Below, in pieces: positions 2,457-31,968 of a DNA stretch of 36,831 nucleotides. Positions within the stretch are counted from its first letter, which is position 1. Every line of letters starts with the position of its first letter. This DNA comes from Candidatus Borkfalkia faecigallinarum (GTDB taxonomy: Bacteria; Bacillota; Clostridia; Christensenellales; Borkfalkiaceae). A program made the translations under genes and the position numbers. The notes beneath the pieces were generated by a model. It worked only from the letters and a program-made list of their open reading frames with translations. It was not told where the DNA came from and searched no databases. The stretch is taken from assembly GCA_019114625.1 (NCBI GenBank), contig DXFD01000057.1, positions 1-36,831 of the forward strand, in the 5' to 3' direction.

Positions 2457-4151
2457 TCATTCGCAGCCGAGGCCGCACAGATGGCGCGGCGCTTCGTCGT
2501 AGCCGCCGCCTTCGGCGACGACCTTGTAAAAGCGGATGCCGCCCGCCAGGTTGGAGCACGAAAACCCGTTCGCCGCAAGGATGCGGCAGGCGATGTAGCT
2601 GCGCAGGCCGCTGTAACAGTTGACGTAAACGGTCTTGCCGCGGTCCAGCTCGCCCAGACGGGCGCGCAGCTCGTCGACGGGAATGTTCACGGCGCCGCGC
2701 AGGTGCGCCTGCGCGAACTCGCCGGGGGTCTGCACGTCGAGCAGGACGGCGTCTTCCCTCTGCGAGATGGCGGGAACGTCTTCCCACCCGTGTTGCCGCA
2801 CGAGGCCGCGGAGCACGTTCCCGATTACATAGCCGGCCATGTTCACCGGATCTTTCGCCGAAGAATAGGGCGGCGCATAACACAGGTCGAGCGCGGTCAG
2901 ATCGTCTGCAGTCAGACCCGCGCGTACCGCCGTGGCGAGCACGTCCATCCGTTTTTCGGTCCCGCCGAAGCCCACGGCCTGGGCGCCGAGGATGCGGCCG
3001 TCCGTGCGGTCGTATACCACTTTGAGGGTCATGTTCTTCGCGCCGGGGTAATAGGTCGCGTGGTCGGGCGAGAAGAGCAGCACGCTGTCCGCCGCGAACC
3101 CCGCGGCGCGCGCCGCGCGCACGCTCAGCCCCGTCGACGCGGCGGTCAGTTCGAACAGCTTCATCACCGAAGAGCCCTGCGCGCCCCGGTACACGCCGGC
3201 AATGCCCGCGACGTTGTCCGCCGCGACGCGCCCCTGCCTGTTCGCCGGCCCCGCCAGCGGGACCAGCGCCTGCTGCCCCGTGACCGCGTTTTTGACCTGC
3301 ACCGCGTCGCCGACGGCGTAGATGTCGGGGTCGGAGGTGCGCATGTGCTCGTCCACAACCACCGCGCCGCGCAGGCCCAGTTCCAGCCCCGCCGCGGCCG
3401 CCAGCTCCGTTTCGGGCGCGACCCCCACCGCGACCAGGGCGAAATCCGCCAAGACCGCCGCCCCGCCCTCGATGTCGGCGCGGACGCCTTCGCCCTCGTC
3501 GCGCAGCGACGTGACGCGGCTGCGCAGGCGCAGGTCGATCCCCTTCTCGCGCAGTTTGGCATGCAGGATGCACGCCATATCGTAATCGAAGGGCGGCATG
3601 ACCTGGTCTTCGAGCTGCAAGAGGGTCACCGAGATGCCGCGCTCCGCGAGGTTTTCAGCCGTTTCCAGCCCGATGAACCCGCCGCCGACCACCAGCGCGC
3701 GGCGGGGGCGGCGTTCGCGGAGAAAATCGTCGACGGCGAAGGTATCTTCCACCGTGCGCAGGGTGAAGATGCGGGCGCTCTGCCCGACAAAGGGCGGGCG
3801 GACCGCCTTCGCCCCCGGCGCGTAGATGAGCTTGTCGTAGCTTTCGAGGTATTCGCCGCCGTCTTCGGCCCGCCGCACGCGCACCTGTTTCTGTTCGCGC
3901 AGGATGGCGACGGCTTCGTTGTGCACGCGCACGTCGACGTTGAAGCGACGGCGGAAACTTTCGGGCGTCTGCAACAGCAGGTTTGCCCGGTCGCGGATGA
4001 CGCCGCCCAGATAATACGGCAGACCGCAGTTCGCGTACGAGACGTATCCGCCCCGCTCCAAAACGACGATCTCCGCCGATTCGTCCAGCCGGCGCAGGCG
4101 CGCCGCTGCCGTAGCCCCGCCGGCGACGCCGCCGATGATCACAACTTTCAT
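2457..4151 (-). CDS. cdr: CoA-disulfide / persulfide reductase with fused rhodanese
   Basis: 564 residues with the order of NADH-dependent CoA-disulfide reductases carrying a C-terminal rhodanese (CoADR-RHD/Npsr type). There is an FAD-binding GGVAGG at 7-12, the single redox cysteine Cys42 in YANCGLPYY, an NAD-binding VVGGGFIGLE near 154-163, a second FAD motif DIYAVGDA near 277-283, a dimerisation domain, then a rhodanese from about 455 with Cys512 in NCYSGLRS. In characterised members these proteins reduce CoA disulfide, CoA persulfide or polysulfide with NAD(P)H. It is the last gene of trxA-rhodanese-cdr; GGGAGG inside the rhodanese 3' end serves as its ribosome site, seven bases after the preceding stop. 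The extreme C-terminus CGLGCE carries two more cysteines. Substrate is inferred. Confidence 0.9.
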   Translation of the reverse strand: MKVVIIGGVAGGATAAARLRRLDESAEIVVLERGGYVSYANCGLPYYLGGVIRDRANLLLQTPESFRRRFNVDVRVHNEAVAILREQKQVRVRRAEDGGEYLESYDKLIYAPGAKAVRPPFVGQSARIFTLRTVEDTFAVDDFLRERRPRRALVVGGGFIGLETAENLAERGISVTLLQLEDQVMPPFDYDMACILHAKLREKGIDLRLRSRVTSLRDEGEGVRADIEGGAAVLADFALVAVGVAPETELAAAAGLELGLRGAVVVDEHMRTSDPDIYAVGDAVQVKNAVTGQQALVPLAGPANRQGRVAADNVAGIAGVYRGAQGSSVMKLFELTAASTGLSVRAARAAGFAADSVLLFSPDHATYYPGAKNMTLKVVYDRTDGRILGAQAVGFGGTEKRMDVLATAVRAGLTADDLTALDLCYAPPYSSAKDPVNMAGYVIGNVLRGLVRQHGWEDVPAISQREDAVLLDVQTPGEFAQAHLRGAVNIPVDELRARLGELDRGKTVYVNCYSGLRSYIACRILAANGFSCSNLAGGIRFYKVVAEGGGYDEAPRHLCGLGCE

Positions 4152-4864: not shown

Positions 4865-5533
4865 TTATTTTTTTTCGGAAGCGAGCCGTTCCAGCCCCGC
4901 CACGTCGAGCAGCTCGACGCCGCCGCGGTGCAGCCGCACCAGCCCTTCCCCTTCAAAATATTTGAGCATGCGCGAAACCGCCTCGCGCGCGGTGCCCAGG
5001 TGCGCCGCCAGCCGCTCGTGCGTGAGTTCGAGGCGGTCGCCGCCCGCATAGCCGCGCTCTTCGAGCAGCAGCGCCGCCAGGCGCGCGTCGAATTTTTTGT
5101 TGAGGACGCCGTCCAGCAGCCACATCACGTCGGAAAGGCGGCGCGCCATCCGCTCGTTGACGAAGGCGGAAAAGGCGAGCGAACGCTCCGCCAGCCGCCG
5201 GAAGGGTTCCGACGGGAGCAGCCATGCCTGCGTGTCCTCTTCCGCGCGCACGAACACGTCGAAATCGGCGCCCGCCAGCGCGCACGAGGCGCTCAGCAGA
5301 CACACTTCCCCCGCCGGCAGGCGGTACAGCGTGATCTCGCGGCCCGCGTCGGACAGCGTGTAGGCGCACAGCCTGCCCCGCTGCACGAAGATCAGCCCCG
5401 CGCATTCGCCGCGGTACACTTCCTCCCCGCGCGCAAACCGCCGCGCGCGCACGTTTGCGTCGAACAGGGCGCGCAGATCCGGTTCCAGCGCGCCGTAAAA
5501 AGAAAACCGCCGAAAAAATTCCATTCCCTTCAC
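4865..5533 (-). CDS. Crp/Fnr-family transcriptional regulator
   Basis: 222 residues: an N-terminal cyclic-nucleotide-binding-like beta barrel (about 10-120), a dimerisation helix, and a C-terminal winged helix (about 155-215) with recognition helix TAREAVSRMLK. That helix keeps the E-x-x-S-R signature of Fnr-type DNA readers. The barrel has GEVCLLSASC, frequent in Firmicute family members, but no N-terminal cysteine cluster of the classical Fnr oxygen sensor is present. The start is GTG 5533 overlapping the zip stop; ATG 5524 is an alternative but has AAGGGA directly abutting it. It is co-transcribed behind the ZIP transporter. The best predicted target is the trxA operon promoter at 4807-4848. 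The effector is unknown. Confidence 0.88.
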   Translation of the reverse strand: MKGMEFFRRFSFYGALEPDLRALFDANVRARRFARGEEVYRGECAGLIFVQRGRLCAYTLSDAGREITLYRLPAGEVCLLSASCALAGADFDVFVRAEEDTQAWLLPSEPFRRLAERSLAFSAFVNERMARRLSDVMWLLDGVLNKKFDARLAALLLEERGYAGGDRLELTHERLAAHLGTAREAVSRMLKYFEGEGLVRLHRGGVELLDVAGLERLASEKK

Positions 5534-6324
5534 CCGATGGCGATGTCGAGCACCATCATCACGAAAAATCCGGCCAGCACGCTCGCCGTGCCGATGTGGC
5601 TGTGTTCGCCGAGGTGCGCCTCGGGGATCAGCTCTTCGACGACGACGTAGATCATCGCGCCCGCCGCAAAGGACAAAAACCAGGGCATCAGCGAGGCGAC
5701 GCCGCCCGCCACGAGCACCGCCAGGATGCCGAAGACCGGCTCGACCACGCCCGAAAGCGCGCCCAGCGCGAAGGCCTTCCCCCGGGCCATGCCGTCCGAG
5801 CGCAGCGGCAGCGACACCGCCGCGCCTTCGGGGAAGTTCTGCAGCGCCATGCCCACGGCCAGGGCGATCGCCGCCGCCAGCGCGCCCGAACCGGACGCGG
5901 CCGCCGCCGCGGCAAAAGCCAGCCCCACCGCCATGCCCTCGGGCACGTTGTGCAGCGTGACCGCCAGGACGAGCATCGCCGACTTCGGAAGCCGGGCGGG
6001 CAGCCCTTCCGCCTCGCTGCTGCCCAGGTGCATGTGCGGCAGCAGTTTATCCAGCAGCAGCAAAAACAGCGCGCCGAGCGCAAACCCGCCGCCTACGGGC
6101 AGCCAGACCGTCCGGCCCGCCTCTTCGAGCTGTTCCATCGCCGGAAGCAGCAGCGAAAAGACGGAAGCCGCCGTCATCACGCCCGCCGCAAAGCCCAAAA
6201 ACACGCGCTGCAGCGCGGCGGAGAGTTCTCCGCGGAAAATAAAGACCATCGCCGCGCCCAGCGCGGTGGCCAGGCAGGTCGCGCCCGTGCCGATCAGCGC
6301 GTACAAAAGTTCGGTCCCCAGCAT
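5530..6324 (-). CDS. ZIP-family metal (zinc) transporter
   Basis: A 264-residue integral membrane protein with about eight hydrophobic segments, ZupT/GufA-like. The metal-site helices read TLHNVPEGMAVG near residue 122 and QNFPEGAAVSLP near 163, and the later helix has VVEELIPEAH. It imports zinc or related divalent cations across the cytoplasmic membrane; specificity cannot be read from sequence. The ATG at 6324 follows GGGGGGAG. It is the first gene of a two-gene unit with the Crp-family regulator (4-base overlap), driven by a near-consensus promoter. Confidence 0.92.
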   Translation of the reverse strand: MLGTELLYALIGTGATCLATALGAAMVFIFRGELSAALQRVFLGFAAGVMTAASVFSLLLPAMEQLEEAGRTVWLPVGGGFALGALFLLLLDKLLPHMHLGSSEAEGLPARLPKSAMLVLAVTLHNVPEGMAVGLAFAAAAAASGSGALAAAIALAVGMALQNFPEGAAVSLPLRSDGMARGKAFALGALSGVVEPVFGILAVLVAGGVASLMPWFLSFAAGAMIYVVVEELIPEAHLGEHSHIGTASVLAGFFVMMVLDIAIG

Positions 6325-6630: not shown

Positions 6631-7857
6631 ATGCAGCAGGGAAACACCGTCTTTTTCAAAAATATGCCCAGGATCGTCGCCACGGCGACGGTCGCCGGAC
6701 CCAAAGAATGCGCCGGGATCGTGGGCGACTACGTCGATTTTTCGCTGGACGACGACATGTTCGGCGAGAGCACCTTCGAGCGCGCCGAGCGCAAGATGCT
6801 GCTGGCCGCGCTGCGCCGCAGCATCGAAAAGGCGGAAAAAAAGCGCGAGGAGATCGACGTGATCGTATCGGGCGACCTTTTGAACCAGATCATCTCGGCG
6901 GGGTTTGCCGCGCGCGAGACGGGGCTGCCCTTCCTCGGCATTTACAGCGCCTGCTCGACCATGAGCGAGGGGCTGCTGCTGGCAGGCATGCTCTGCGACG
7001 GCGGCTACGCCAAGACGGCGGTGGCGGCCACGGGCAGCCACTTTTCTTCGGCGGAACGGCAGTACCGCTACCCCCTCGAGCTGGGCACGACCCGGCCGCC
7101 GCAGTCGCAGTGGACGGTGACGGGCGCGGGGAGCGCCGTCGTTTCCGCCCTGGGCGCGGGGCCGGCGCTGACCTGCGGCACCGTGGGGCGGGTGGTCGAT
7201 TACGGCGTTTCGGACGTGAACAACATGGGCGCGGCCATGGCGCCCGCCGCGGCGGACACCATCCTCGCGCACCTGCGCGACACCGGCCGCGACCCTTCGT
7301 ATTACGACCTGATCCTTACCGGCGATCTGGGCGCGCTCGGCAGCCGCATCTGCAAGGACCTCGTATGGGAAAAGGGCGCCGACATGTTCGACAACCACGT
7401 CGACTGCGGCGAGATCGTCTACAAGGTGATCGAAGACGAATTTCAGGGCGGCAGCGGCGCGGGATGCAGCGCCGTGGTCCTCGGCTCGTACATCTTCGAC
7501 AAGCTCCGCCGCGGCGGGCTGGACCGAGTGCTGTTCGTGGCGACGGGCGCCCTTCTTTCGACCGTGTCTTCCGGCCAGGGCGAGACCATCCCCTGCATCG
7601 CCCACGCCGTGGCCATCGAGACCGGACGCGGCCGCGCCGGGAAAGCGGGCAACAGCGCGCAAAAAGAGGGCGCCCCCGGTAAAAAAGCGGGCGGAGGCCG
7701 GCCGTCATCCGGCGGAAACGGCGCCGAAAACCGACCAACGTATGCAAAAAATGCGGCAGTCCGCCCGGCCGGAACAAGGCGCACGGGCGGGGCAAAAGGC
7801 CGGAAGAGCGCCGCACGGCAAGCCGGGGAAAACGGCCCGGCACAGGAGGACGCATGA
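6631..7857 (+). CDS. spoVAD: Stage V sporulation protein AD with long C-terminal tail
   Basis: 408 residues. The first ~331 are a full-length SpoVAD with a thiolase-like fold: the IYSACSTMSEGLLLAG region near 104-119, VAATGSHFSSAERQYRYPLE near 131-150, and PCIAHAVAIE at 321-330, where the family normally ends. SpoVAD binds dipicolinic acid and is part of the SpoVA channel that loads it into the forespore and releases it at germination. The final 77 residues are a basic low-complexity tail rich in Gly, Ala, Lys and Arg, not typical of the family. The tail ends in an ATGA overlap with spoVAE, so the frame is intact. The start is ATG 6631 after GGAGGAG. spoVAC, normally just upstream, is absent here. 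Confidence 0.93.
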   Translation: MQQGNTVFFKNMPRIVATATVAGPKECAGIVGDYVDFSLDDDMFGESTFERAERKMLLAALRRSIEKAEKKREEIDVIVSGDLLNQIISAGFAARETGLPFLGIYSACSTMSEGLLLAGMLCDGGYAKTAVAATGSHFSSAERQYRYPLELGTTRPPQSQWTVTGAGSAVVSALGAGPALTCGTVGRVVDYGVSDVNNMGAAMAPAAADTILAHLRDTGRDPSYYDLILTGDLGALGSRICKDLVWEKGADMFDNHVDCGEIVYKVIEDEFQGGSGAGCSAVVLGSYIFDKLRRGGLDRVLFVATGALLSTVSSGQGETIPCIAHAVAIETGRGRAGKAGNSAQKEGAPGKKAGGGRPSSGGNGAENRPTYAKNAAVRPAGTRRTGGAKGRKSAARQAGENGPAQEDA

Positions 7858-8234
7858 ATCCCTACCTCGACATTCTGCTGCAATTTGCCAAGGCCTTTGC
7901 GGTGGGCGGAGCGATCTGCGTCGTCGCGCAGGTCGTGATCAACTTCACCAAGCTCACTTCGGGCAAGATCCTCGTGTTTTTCATGCTGGCGGGAGTCGCG
8001 CTGGAGGCGCTCGGGCTGTACCGTTACGCCGTCGATTTTGCCGGGGCCGGCGCCACGGTGCCCATTTCGGGGTTCGGCTATCTGTTGGCGCGCGGCGCGA
8101 TGAAGGGCGCCGAACGCGGCCTGTTCGGCGCGGTGACGGGCACCCTCGCCGCCGCGAGCGCGGGGATCACGGCGGCCGTCCTCTTTTCCTTCCTGGCCGC
8201 GCTCGTCTTCAAACCCCGCAGCAAAAAGAACTGA
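7854..8234 (+). CDS. spoVAE: Stage V sporulation protein AE (SpoVAEb type)
   Basis: A 126-residue hydrophobic protein with about four membrane spans and the family stretches AVGGAICVVAQ near 16-26 and VPISGFGYLLARGAMKG near 67-83. It is a membrane subunit of the SpoVA dipicolinic acid channel in the forespore inner membrane. The ATG at 7854 overlaps the spoVAD stop, so the two are translationally coupled. Without SpoVAC beside it, the third channel component would have to be encoded elsewhere. Confidence 0.92.
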   Translation: MNPYLDILLQFAKAFAVGGAICVVAQVVINFTKLTSGKILVFFMLAGVALEALGLYRYAVDFAGAGATVPISGFGYLLARGAMKGAERGLFGAVTGTLAAASAGITAAVLFSFLAALVFKPRSKKN

Positions 8235-28869: not shown

Positions 28870-29302
28870 TTTGTTCCTCCTTTTGGTCTGTTTTTTGTGT
28901 ATCCAGCACCTCGACGACCTCGATGCCGAAGCCGCGGCGCCGGGAAAGCAGCTTGTCCGCCGCCCAGACCGCCAAAAAACCGACGGCCAGCCCCGCAAGG
29001 CAGAAGAGCGCGGCGTACAGCTCCTGCTCGAAACACTGCGCGCCCACGATGACGCCGGCCACGCCCAGCAGCACGGGCAGGATGTACACGAGAAAGGACG
29101 CGAGCGTGCGGTTGTCCTTTTCCGCCTCGACGACGACGCGGTCCCCCGCGGCGGCGCCCGCCGTGTTGAGGGCCCTGACCTTGACGCGGCTCTTCCCGCC
29201 CGCAAAGGCGCACACCTTGCAGGCGGAGCACGCGGGGCTCTTTTCGATCTGCACGACGGCGATCTTCCCCGCCGTCTTTAAGACGAGCGCGACCTCCTTC
29301 AT
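28853..29302 (-). CDS. SoxR-reducing system RseC-family membrane protein
   Basis: 149 residues. An N-terminal soluble part carries the cysteine cluster SPACSACKVCAF near 22-33, typical of RseC proteins. Two membrane segments follow, about 70-88 and 95-114, with a charged cytoplasmic tail. RseC proteins accompany Rnf complexes in many anaerobes and belong to systems that keep iron-sulfur regulators reduced; no rnf gene is in view. ATG 29302 overlaps the hisS stop (ATGA). It sits between hisS and a thioredoxin, with overlaps on both sides, so the three are co-translated. Confidence 0.85.
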   Translation of the reverse strand: MKEVALVLKTAGKIAVVQIEKSPACSACKVCAFAGGKSRVKVRALNTAGAAAGDRVVVEAEKDNRTLASFLVYILPVLLGVAGVIVGAQCFEQELYAALFCLAGLAVGFLAVWAADKLLSRRRGFGIEVVEVLDTQKTDQKEEQNGQGD

Positions 29303-30558
29303 ACCGGCTTTGCCGCGAGGTACGCCGCGCACTCGGCCGCGGAGACGCTCTCCGAGGTCGAATCTGCCATGTTTTTGACGGTGTAGCGGCCGCTGCTCAG
29401 CTCGTCCGCGCCGATGACGACGACGTAGCGCGCGCCGGCCTTGCCCGCGTACTTGAACTGCGCCTTGACCGAGCGGGCGGCGTGGTCGAAGTCCGCCGCG
29501 ACGCCGCGCGCGCGCAGCTGCGCGGCCAGGGCGAAGGCGGCGCGGCGCCCCGCCTCGTCCAGCCCGGCGACGTACACGCTTATCGGCGGCTCCTGCGGGA
29601 TGCCCTTGCCCGTGTTTTCCAGAACGAGCAGCATCCGCTCGATGCCGCTGCCGAACCCGACCGCGGGGACGGAAGGGCCGCCCAGATTTTCGATGAGGGT
29701 ATCGTACCGCCCGCCGCCGAGCACCGTGCCCTGCGAACCGATGGCGGTGGACACGAACTCGAACACCGTCTTGGAATAGTAATCCAGCCCGCGCACGAGC
29801 TTGGGATTGAGCTTGTATTTTACGCCGCTCGCGTCGAGGATGGAGCACAGCTTTTCAAAGTGCTCGCGGCACTCGTCGCACAGATAATCGACGGAGCGGG
29901 GCGCGTTCTCGTTGATCGCGGCGCACGCCTCCTCCTTGCAGTCGAGGATGCGCAGCGGGTTCTTCTCGAAGCGGGCGTTGCAGGTGGGGCACATCGCGGA
30001 CAAATGGGGGCGCAGATACTCTTTCAGCGCCTCGTTGAAGCGGGGGCGGCAGTGCTTGCAGCCGATGGAATTGAGGTTGAGCTCCACCCCCTCCACGCCG
30101 AGGGCGGCGATGTAGTCGCGCGCGAGCAGGATGACCTCGGCGTCCGTCTCGGGGCCCTTGCCGCCGAAGATCTCGACGCCGAACTGGTGATGCTCGCGCA
30201 GGCGGCCCGCCTGCGGCCGCTCATAGCGGAAGACGGGGGTGAGGTAGTACATCTTCAGGGGCAGCACGCCGCCCGCGAGGCCGTTCTCGATAAAGGCGCG
30301 CACGACGCCCGCCGTCCCCTCCGGCTTGAGCGTGATCGAACGCTCGCCCTTGTCGAGGAAGGTGTACATCTCCTTGTTGACGATATCCGTCGTGTCCCCC
30401 ACGCCGCGCAGGAACAGCTCGGTATGCTCGAAGGTGGGGGTGCGGATCTCCCGCAGCCCGTACAGCGCCGCGATGCGGCGGGCGGTGTTTTCCACAAAAT
30501 GCCACTTGTATGCCTCGGCGGGCAAAACGTCTTTGGTCCCTTTGGGAATATTGATCAT
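29299..30558 (-). CDS. hisS: Histidyl-tRNA synthetase
   Basis: 419 residues, a class II synthetase. Motif 1 lies around FRGVGDTTDIVNKEMYTF-like sequence near 47-63, motif 2 is FRYERPQAGRLREHHQFG near 109-126, the histidine-A motif is LVRGLDYYSKTVFEF near 255-269, and motif 3 is GFGSGIERMLL near 299-309. A C-terminal anticodon-binding domain follows (about 325-419). Extra cysteines near 172-220 (CKHC, CPTC, CDEC) suggest a zinc-binding insertion seen in some homologues. ATG 30558 follows AAGGAG. The ~190-nt leader contains a direct repeat but no T-box motif that I can see. Confidence 0.95.
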   Translation of the reverse strand: MINIPKGTKDVLPAEAYKWHFVENTARRIAALYGLREIRTPTFEHTELFLRGVGDTTDIVNKEMYTFLDKGERSITLKPEGTAGVVRAFIENGLAGGVLPLKMYYLTPVFRYERPQAGRLREHHQFGVEIFGGKGPETDAEVILLARDYIAALGVEGVELNLNSIGCKHCRPRFNEALKEYLRPHLSAMCPTCNARFEKNPLRILDCKEEACAAINENAPRSVDYLCDECREHFEKLCSILDASGVKYKLNPKLVRGLDYYSKTVFEFVSTAIGSQGTVLGGGRYDTLIENLGGPSVPAVGFGSGIERMLLVLENTGKGIPQEPPISVYVAGLDEAGRRAAFALAAQLRARGVAADFDHAARSVKAQFKYAGKAGARYVVVIGADELSSGRYTVKNMADSTSESVSAAECAAYLAAKPV

Positions 30559-30782: not shown

Positions 30783-31049
30783 TGGCAAAAATCACATTTT
30801 TCCGCAAAAAACCGACCCGATCGCAAAACCGCACAGCCCTTCCCGCCGCAAGGCCCGGGGCGGGGCAGAGCCCTCCGTCTCACGGAAAATCGCAGGCGTC
30901 GGCACGCCGAGATTTTCGTGAACTACCCCTCTCTGCGCGTGCCAAAATCACACTTTTGGCAAAGCGCACCCCATTAGCCGCATACTTGCGGCTTCTGCGG
31001 AAAGAGTGAATTTGCGGCATTTATCAAAGATGTGCCCTAACACAGGGCT

Positions 31050-31079
31050 CCCAAAAAGTATCGAAGAACTTTTTGGGAA
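31050..31079. repeat. Extra hairpin in the first variable insert
   Basis: CCCAAAAAGT pairs with ACTTTTTGGG around an 8-base loop. Confidence 0.75.
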
Positions 31080-31576
31080 GAGGAGGAGCCGCCGCGCCGA
31101 GCGTGGCGGGGCGCGTATCGCGTGCCGCCCGCAACAAGCGGCGAGCGACGACGAGCGGAAAGAGGGAGAAAACGCTGCCGAGCAAAGCGAACAGCGGTGT
31201 CTCTCTCCAACTCACGGAAATTTGTTTTGACAGCTCAAAACAAATTTCGTGAATCTTTTCATGAACAACTCTCGCGCAAGCAAAACCGCGCTTTTGCGCC
31301 GCGCACCCCAATTTGCGCGCAAGCGCCTCAGCGGGTGAATGCGGCGCGCGTTCTTAAAAGACGTGCCCCGAAAAGCGCGCCGCAGAGGGCAGAGCCCTCA
31401 CCATCGGAAGATTTTGTTTTGACAGCTCAAAACAAAATCTCCGAGTGAACTTTCTGCGCGTGCCAAAATCGCATTTTTGGCAAAGCGCACCCCATTTGCC
31501 GCATACCTGCGGCTTCTGCGGAAAGAGTGAATTTGCGGCATTTATTAAAGGCGTGCCCTTAAAATATGCCGCAAAG

Positions 31577-31628
31577 AGAGAAAACAGGCCGCCGAAGCGA
31601 CATCGTCGCGGAGCGGCGGGTTTTCTCT
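31577..31628. repeat. Extra hairpin in the second variable insert
   Basis: AGAGAAAAC (31577-31585) pairs with GTTTTCTCT (31620-31628), enclosing CCGCCG/CGGCGG and GCGAC-ATC-GTCGC helices. The insert before H2 has an analogous GAGGGAGA/TCTCTCTC frame with CGCTG/CAGCG inside. Confidence 0.8.
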
Positions 31629-31680
31629 CAAAATCACGGAAATTTGTTTCGTCAGCTCGAAACAAATTTCGTGAACATTT

Positions 31681-31968
31681 TCAAAACTTTATCTCCCTCG
31701 GCTCGGCGTATTCTGCGCGGGGGCGCGTCCGCTTCTTTTCCACGATGTAGTACACGTTTTTGGGCGCGCTGTTCGGCGGCGGGGGCGGGGCGGCGCTCTC
31801 CGCGCTCTCCCGTTCGCGCTCCCACTCTTCGCGCAGGGCGCGCTCGCGCTCCTCGCGGCGGCGCAGCGCGTACAGGCGGAACCCGGCCACCCCGCCCAGA
31901 CAGGCGCCGAACAGGAGCAGCAGGTACAGCCCGCCCATCGCCGCGCCCGCCGACAAGAGTTGATCCAT
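31681..31968 (-). CDS. Small single-span membrane protein, function unknown
   Basis: 95 residues. A hydrophobic segment at about 9-33 (GGLYLLLLFGACLGGVAGF) is followed by a highly charged, probably coiled helix (RLYALRRREERERALREEW), a Pro run, and a basic tail containing NVYYIVEKK. It looks like a membrane-anchored cytoplasmic-facing helix, but no family is recognised. ATG 31968 follows GGGAGGTG. Hairpin H4 of the repeat array begins eight bases after the stop and may act as its terminator. A TACAAT box lies at 32021-32026 but the -35 is poor. Confidence 0.75.
   Translation of the reverse strand: MDQLLSAGAAMGGLYLLLLFGACLGGVAGFRLYALRRREERERALREEWERERESAESAAPPPPPNSAPKNVYYIVEKKRTRPRAEYAEPREIKF

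Follow-up and report, generated by a model that had tools for sequence, protein, structure and literature searches.

The window, a 36,831-nt stretch of the Candidatus Borkfalkia faecigallinarum genome, carries an array of hairpin units between a gene that we take to be hisS and a small membrane-protein-like open reading frame. The units belong to a non-coding repeat family without a match in Rfam 15 and not described in any title or abstract opening among the papers searched, and their hairpins keep their shape while their sequence largely changes. We consider the best explanation, at a probability of about 0.5, to be a dispersed, mobile, non-autonomous repeat that some enzyme moves in trans and whose folded single strand is under selection. 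The original prediction, made from the letters of this stretch, had proposed a dispersed structured or mobile repeat whose fold is conserved, and this is supported.

The predicted array of hairpin modules is real and extends somewhat further upstream, to 30845-31674. It comprises three units and the remnant of a fourth, with one unit interrupted by another repeat (Table 1). A unit measures ~190 nt, and its parts follow a fixed order: an AT-rich leader, hairpins hp1 and hp2, a purine linker (GGAAAGAGTGAA in units 1 and 3), hp3, hp4 and a terminal hairpin, H. The original scheme of alternating H and C modules with two inserts holds as an ordered array, with C, insert and H together forming the natural unit. 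Its inserts did not hold as such: the one after C3 is the unit's own hp4, and the one after C1 is mostly a separate repeat lodged in hp3, followed by hp4. C1 (30929-31038) and C3 (31450-31559), for which 97 matches over 104 bases had been counted by eye, are 93% identical over 110 nt. Of the four H hairpins described, model R1 recovers H2, H3 and H4 and a weaker H1, and in the entire 36.8-kb window its only matches with E up to 0.01 are these four plus H2-H4 on the opposite strand. The paired T-A to C-G change between H2 and H4 is present. H2 consists of a 4-bp outer stem, a bulged purine, a 13-bp stem and the loop ACAGCT; H3 has the outer stem TCGG/CCGA in place of TCAC/GTGA, and H1 is a variant whose inner part has a GCA/GA internal loop and whose loop is TCGGCA. 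The 3' edge of H4 lies 6 nt off the stop codon (31681-31683) of the convergent gene.

As a whole, the 834-nt stretch folds better than all of 20 dinucleotide shuffles (z -16.3). The region was thought to be free of genes, and a codon-usage gene caller indeed placed none between 30558 and 31680; it was also thought to be less GC-rich than its flanks, and in 200-base windows across 29.0-33.5 kb its GC content is 0.47-0.62, against 0.60-0.79 in the surroundings.

Table 1. Features of the hairpin array and its flanks, in positions of the window.
Feature	Position	Strand	Basis	Parts or remarks
hisS (name from reading of sequence), left flank	29302..30558	-	protein search: matches in 40/40 genus genomes	
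Fourth-unit remnant	30845..30875	+	sequence, compared with full units	5'-truncated
Remnant, hp2-like	30845-30854	+	sequence, compared with full units	GCCGCAAGGC
Remnant, hp4-like stretch	30862-30875	+	sequence, compared with full units	ends in GGGGCAGAGCCCTC
H1	30880..30921	+	R1 27.1 bits, not in R1 seed	terminal hairpin of remnant
Unit 1	30922..31252	+	R2 matches 30973-31057 and 31159-31210; D1 repeat	leader; hp1 30934-30968; hp2 30977-30992; linker GGAAAGAGTGAA 30999-31010; hp3 5' arm 31011-31020; second repeat; hp4 31162-31207; H2
Second dispersed structured repeat	31044..31157 (ends approximate)	+	copies elsewhere	inside unit 1 hp3; AGGGCTCCC...GACGACGAGCG
H2	31212..31252	+	R1 66.8 bits, in R1 seed	
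Unit 2	31253..31444	+	R2 match 31311-31402; unit not in R2 seed	hp1 31273-31304; hp2 31315-31326; hp3 31340-31384; hp4 31385-31399; H3
H3	31404..31444	+	R1 61.5 bits, in R1 seed	
Unit 3	31445..31674	+	R2 126 bits, R3 127.5 bits; unit in both seeds	hp1 31455-31489; hp2 31498-31513; linker GGAAAGAGTGAA 31520-31531; hp3 31532-31575; hp4 31576-31629; H4
H4	31634..31674	+	R1 69.3 bits, in R1 seed	
Small membrane-protein-like ORF, right flank	31681..31968	-	"membrane" from reading of sequence	

The repeat found within unit 1 is built of AGGGCTCCC, a hairpin with varying arms, GGAAGAGGAGGAGCC... and GACGACGAG. It also occurs at five further loci (L044, L046, L047, L039 and L032); it is lodged in hp3 of several units and stands alone in L032, near a tRNA-Met gene.

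The fold of H is conserved. Alignment A1 contains 51 of 56 distinct H sequences, collected by requiring at least 9 of 12 Watson-Crick arm pairs; two coding-looking sequences and three with the outer stem shifted or unpaired were dropped. In A1, 99.0% of 867 cells are paired, 15 of 17 pairs show double changes, and double-change cells outnumber one-sided ones by 190 to 7, a result matched by 0 of 500 shuffles. The 4-bp outer stem comes in five types (TCAC/GTGA, TCGG/CCGA, TCGT/ACGA, TCGC/GCGA and TCTC/GAGA), the bulged base is G in 34, A in 16 and T in 1 of the 51 sequences, and beyond the bulge a 13-bp stem carries a TCAGCT-type loop. Because A1 had been pre-selected on pairing, a loop-anchored test was run without selection on the arms. 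All 12 pairs formed at 22 of 166 TCAGC[TA] sites in the own set and at 37 of 151 in the genus set; among the remaining sites, one in each set had 11 pairs, none had 9-10 and the others had 0-8, a bimodal distribution, while seven control hexamers gave nothing at 10 pairs or more. The loop TCTCTT was tried as a variant of H and rejected, with no site reaching 10 pairs in the fixed register.

The inner hairpins behave similarly. For hp3, distinct stretches were anchored by the loop motif and the flanking sequence. Of these 139 stretches, 95 formed 8 or 9 of the 9 pairs, compared with 8.7% for permuted arms, and 41 formed 0-4. For hp2-hp4 we used alignment A3, comprising 30 of 65 units from the genus of the source genome, picked because they start at the same point and their hp3 can be aligned. 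Double changes occur in 23 of its 29 pairs, and 94.3% of cells are paired, against 75.0% in shuffles and 36-50% for slid structures, a figure that leans towards pairing since the structure was read off the same alignment. On alignment A2, which mixes two genera, RNAalifold returned only 7 pairs because their hp3 sequences were misaligned, and model R2 is consequently mostly a sequence profile. The covariation called for by the original prediction is therefore strong in the H and hp2-hp4 alignments, where double changes keep the pairing, and its view that structure rather than sequence is conserved is borne out.

Covariation of this kind might also arise without function, if master copies expanded and the arms of palindromes were kept perfect by template-switch correction during replication. 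The few intermediates, reflected in the low number of one-sided cells in A1, fit such a process, as does the recurrence of single H types within genomes (one and the same sequence accounts for 13 of the 45 H hairpins listed for other genera). However, loops and linkers, which such correction would leave untouched, are conserved across genera, and hp4 retains A.G mismatches in 18 of 329 cells; we regard this account as improbable.

Further copies, anticipated in the source genome (G000), are abundant. The array gave 68 BLASTN matches there, a count that includes the query itself and palindrome self-matches, and R3, a model of the core trained on the source genus (g1) with H excluded, gave 39. 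In 180 kb of G000, window included, R1 marked 45 H places (E up to 0.01, strands merged), in stretches picked for holding the repeat, so that counts per stretch are not genome rates. The units occur in many copies between genes, in tandem and head-to-head arrays, and combine differing helix variants; the largest array noted, in L039, reaches ~1.1 kb with many hairpins. Within the genus, R3 found the core in 36 of 40 genomes, all except G015, G028, G033 and G034; G003 and G018 each have at least 86 copies, with a match for every one of the 86 candidates scored. Under strict filters and with no more than 26 candidates scored per genome, R1 matched 77 of 251 family genomes in 5 of 18 genera. At order level, R3 matched 15 of 297 genomes, spread over 4 of 125 genera and including families f6 and f29; at class level it matched 2 of 341 genomes, namely G000 and one from the same family. 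An exact-pattern scan of named genomes returned 32 stretches; every title names an uncultured Clostridia or Firmicutes bacterium, and in some of them the isolate name includes chicken.

The same architecture recurs outside the source genus, in two other genera of its family and in two other families of the order. For held-out genera, 30 of more than 40 other-genus loci were used; R3 matched 23 of them, all from g10 and g8, with up to 73.8 bits (31 matches, two of which are one place where L253 and L261 overlap), although agreement there is not fully independent since these loci were originally fetched by H. Three g16 loci, three g10 loci of G164 and one g8 locus (L241) gave no R3 match. The f6 and f29 loci of the order scan were found through R3 alone. 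Downstream sequence was long enough for folding at 22 of 23 R3 sites (17 of 18 from f6 and f29, five from g8), and the next 75 nt had z values of -1.1 to -8.3 against 100 composition shuffles, two of them weaker than -1.5; among the 17 sites from f6 and f29, all but one (at -1.1) reached at least -1.2. The fold is mostly one long terminal hairpin, with outer stems that differ between f29 and f6. Together with the R3 matches, these hairpins place the architecture, terminal hairpin included, in three families.

The array coincides with a break in synteny. Relative to genome G025, the window matches contig C4 at 21.9-30.6 kb and contig C6 at 31.7-36.3 kb and beyond. In 24 of 29 relatives, hisS has upstream of it the end of a gene that is presumably hslU, judging by the protein end, and the other five meet a contig end within the stretch; G000 alone has the full stretch without it, and its matching region forms the start of contig C11, after a broken array. 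The join in the window arose either by rearrangement through the repeat or by mis-joining during assembly. Seven contig ends of G000 fall in or beside the repeat (C6, C11, C27 twice, C30, C58 and C77), which, with flanks matching different G025 contigs, could suggest that the array is itself an artefact of assembly. The core has the same architecture in 36 of 40 separate assemblies, however, so that only the join between the flanks could be false, and we find an artefactual array hardly credible.

Three other irregularities were seen in these comparisons. The G025 match also switches contig at ~21.8 kb, from C21 to C4, which may be a mere contig end. L043 1203-3249, G025 C21 1330-2181 and C4 39108-40561 are internally repetitive, align at several offsets and possibly encode a repeat protein. 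L229 1161-5033 (G035 C6) is 3.9 kb long in G035, against 13 nt in G025.

Evidence for mobility comes from orthologous sites filled in one genome and empty in another, the criterion applied to MITEs. G035 and G025 are the closest pair by hisS among 30 genomes compared (95.1% identity). At G025 C4:156640-157580, units lie on both sides of a promoter-like sequence; the same site in G035 is a short gap that keeps this sequence and has no unit, and G000 also has no unit there, which makes a gain in G025 the simplest reading. More filled and empty pairs distinguish G000 from G025 (L036 ~7700-8200, L040 ~5200-5450 and L039 ~2500-3780) and G035 from G025 (L217 ~5670-6130). At G035 L215 2185-2533, the empty allele on G025 C17 retains half an H arm, suggesting loss rather than gain. 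One G025 unit (C6:45072-44684) starts within the unit, abutting a gene end. The sites read gave no clean case of a target-site duplication or a fixed 5' end; a three-base T run at one site only is ambiguous.

One gap speaks against free mobility. Between the hslU-like gene and hisS, a motif scan located H- or hp1-type hairpins in 21 of the 30 genomes scanned; their orientation varies, and some stand head to head, with H on the outside. Inverted head-to-head pairs thus occur in some relatives, and the array of the window is tandem. Such occupancy means that some gaps are persistently or repeatedly filled, as a functional element would be. Short unit-free gaps from the hslU-like stop to hisS were seen in G019 (27 nt), G009 (61 nt) and G028 (99 nt).

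H avoids genes and lies close to their ends. In 789 kb of G000, G025 and G035, 2 of 125 H hairpins fall inside called genes. The next gene follows the 3' edge of terminal H at a median distance of 18 nt (n=83; within 18 nt in 43) and presents a convergent stop codon in 50 cases and a start codon in 33; on the 5' side the median distance is 298 nt (n=44), an asymmetry partly built in because ~150 nt of unit lies 5' of H. This closeness to the next called gene would suit regulatory hairpins at gene ends, that is, repeated intrinsic terminators or attenuators, and 55 of 80 H hairpins have at least three A residues in the preceding 4 nt, a short run of T when read from the opposite strand. Yet the T run is short and absent in 25 of 80, stems in this genus are AT-rich, single arrays hold as many hairpins as that of L039, and the orthologous genes of some relatives do without them. 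Regulatory hairpins are in our judgement an unlikely explanation.

A stronger alternative is a structured non-coding RNA family, transcribed from the + strand as independent RNAs or UTR elements, for which spreading would be secondary. It is possible, though we rate it below a mobile repeat. The multi-helix fold is kept across families, the unit's linker is conserved and purine-rich, hp4 contains GA-type internal loops, and the hslU-hisS gap is frequently occupied. In the 415 cells of hp4, G-U outnumbers A-C by 14 to 4 (outer part 11:4, inner part 3:0), which together with the recurrent A.G mismatches fits an RNA. GNRA loops make up 17 of 54 hp2 tetraloops, counted on perfect stems with 4-nt loops only. 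Against RNA, the commonest of these tetraloops, GTTA (11 of 54), is of the GNNA and not the GNRA type, and GNNA is a stable DNA loop. G-U is not preferred in H and hp3 (10 G-U vs 8 A-C in 1167 cells), a hint of folded DNA over RNA, with both kinds of pair thinned by the collection of H via Watson-Crick arms. Within a single genus the core count varies between 0 and at least 86, relatives differ in whether several sites carry a unit, and H, facing both stops and starts, has no consistent sense relation to genes. No Rfam family matched in the window at the gathering cut-off, and 15 related loci gave one match, outside the unit; six matches appeared up to E 5, and HEARO was not among them, nor at gathering. 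That single match is a T-box leader (RF00230, 103 bits) at L304 760-987 in G257, near a unit.

The purine tracts flanking hp3 also bear on the nature of the fold. As a mirror, they are exact at 6 of 6 positions at 98 of 246 anchors in the best of eight registers (permuted mean 20.7, maximum 34), and as a direct repeat at 7 of 246 (permuted 1.9, maximum 6); the 246 include some chance anchors. The mirror relation is less clear among 40 distinct tract types, some of them apparently false hits; there the mirror register leads moderately, with mutual information of 0.375 vs 0.26 for the best direct register. A purine-motif triplex favours DNA, and as an explanation of the mirror tracts it is suggestive of a DNA fold. 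Still, DNA over RNA is the weakest step of our best explanation, and what favours it amounts to a hint. We speculate further that an order-wide element could move as a folded single DNA strand with a purine-purine-pyrimidine triplex between linker and hp4, recognised by its shape by a recombinase or transposase. This idea is rather unlikely; if true, such a triplex-bearing element would form a new class beside attC sites and the ends of IS200/IS605.

None of three candidate enzymes explains the repeat. Palindromic, extragenic hairpins with occasional inverted doublets recall REP/REPIN elements moved by RAYT, a Y1 transposase, and compensatory changes are reported for REPIN hairpins (PMC3116915). 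Y1 transposase (PF01797) occurs in 23 of the 40 genomes of the genus, yet it correlates negatively with unit count (Spearman -0.35, p 0.03): 11 of the 23 genomes with at least 20 core matches gave no Y1 match, and the five genomes with 0-1 core matches gave 7, 3, 2, 4 and 5. The copy in G000 has no H within the 3.3-kb locus read, and draft genomes may hide genes. Y1/RAYT was thus rejected as the partner, and a REP/RAYT system appears very improbable. Of the options in the original prediction, the non-autonomous mobile repeat is best supported, and the REP-like one, in the REP/RAYT sense, falls with the distribution of the transposase. The sole Y1 ORF of G000 (L080, C88:3137-3451) encodes 143 amino acids, shorter than many relatives' copies, and looks IS200-like on reading the sequence. 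Reverse transcriptase (PF00078; 4 of 40 genus genomes) and IscB-type RRXRR (PF14239; 2 of 40, one above the family cut-off), neither found in G000, were also discarded as partners, being absent from nearly all unit-rich genomes in these drafts.

For a mobile repeat, selection would act on how one strand folds, most likely as single-stranded DNA. H, with its short outer stem, bulged purine, long stem and conserved loop, may serve as a terminal recognition site; an enzyme would copy or move the unit in trans, with H landing next to start or stop codons, and repeated units could then recombine into arrays and join distant parts of the chromosome. A mobile repeat would imply a mobilising enzyme beyond Y1, reverse transcriptase and IscB. 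Sequence turns over while the fold stays, at dozens of places in each genome of these uncultured gut bacteria, which makes the repeat a large natural experiment; its many double-changed helices can be used to ask whether a DNA or an RNA fold is selected. In practical terms, these draft genomes break at the repeat and may be mis-joined there.

How the repeat relates to known systems can be judged by its parts. HEARO, the IscB omega-RNA, is a multi-helix non-coding element that can be multi-copy; here there is no Rfam HEARO match, and RRXRR exceeds its cut-off in 1 of 40 genus genomes. Integron attC sites, too, have bulged bases. They differ in that no gene cassettes were seen here and the repeat is dispersed over many loci, where attC arrays stand beside one integrase. 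The likeness would lie in a folded single strand recognised by structure despite variable sequence (PMC2727003). MITEs are likewise non-autonomous, AT-richer than their flanks, folded and known from filled and empty sites (PMC3049150); in the repeat, no target-site duplication was clear at the sites read, and no terminal inverted repeats in common with an IS were seen. REP, BIME and REPIN elements with RAYT share extragenic palindromes, compensatory changes and within-genome expansion, and inverted doublets with the arrays of some relatives (PMC3116915), whereas the repeat has no Y1 link, a unit of ~190 nt and five helices. BOX of Streptococcus pneumoniae is equally a modular, multi-copy, interspersed and strongly folded composite of modules, and the available part of its description names no mobilising enzyme either (PMC3049150). 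By that description, BOX differs from the present units, which have five hairpins each, arms replaced by double changes and an architecture kept across families of an order. In kind, the repeat resembles BOX and REPIN; it fails the RAYT test, and its structural conservation sets it apart in size and depth.
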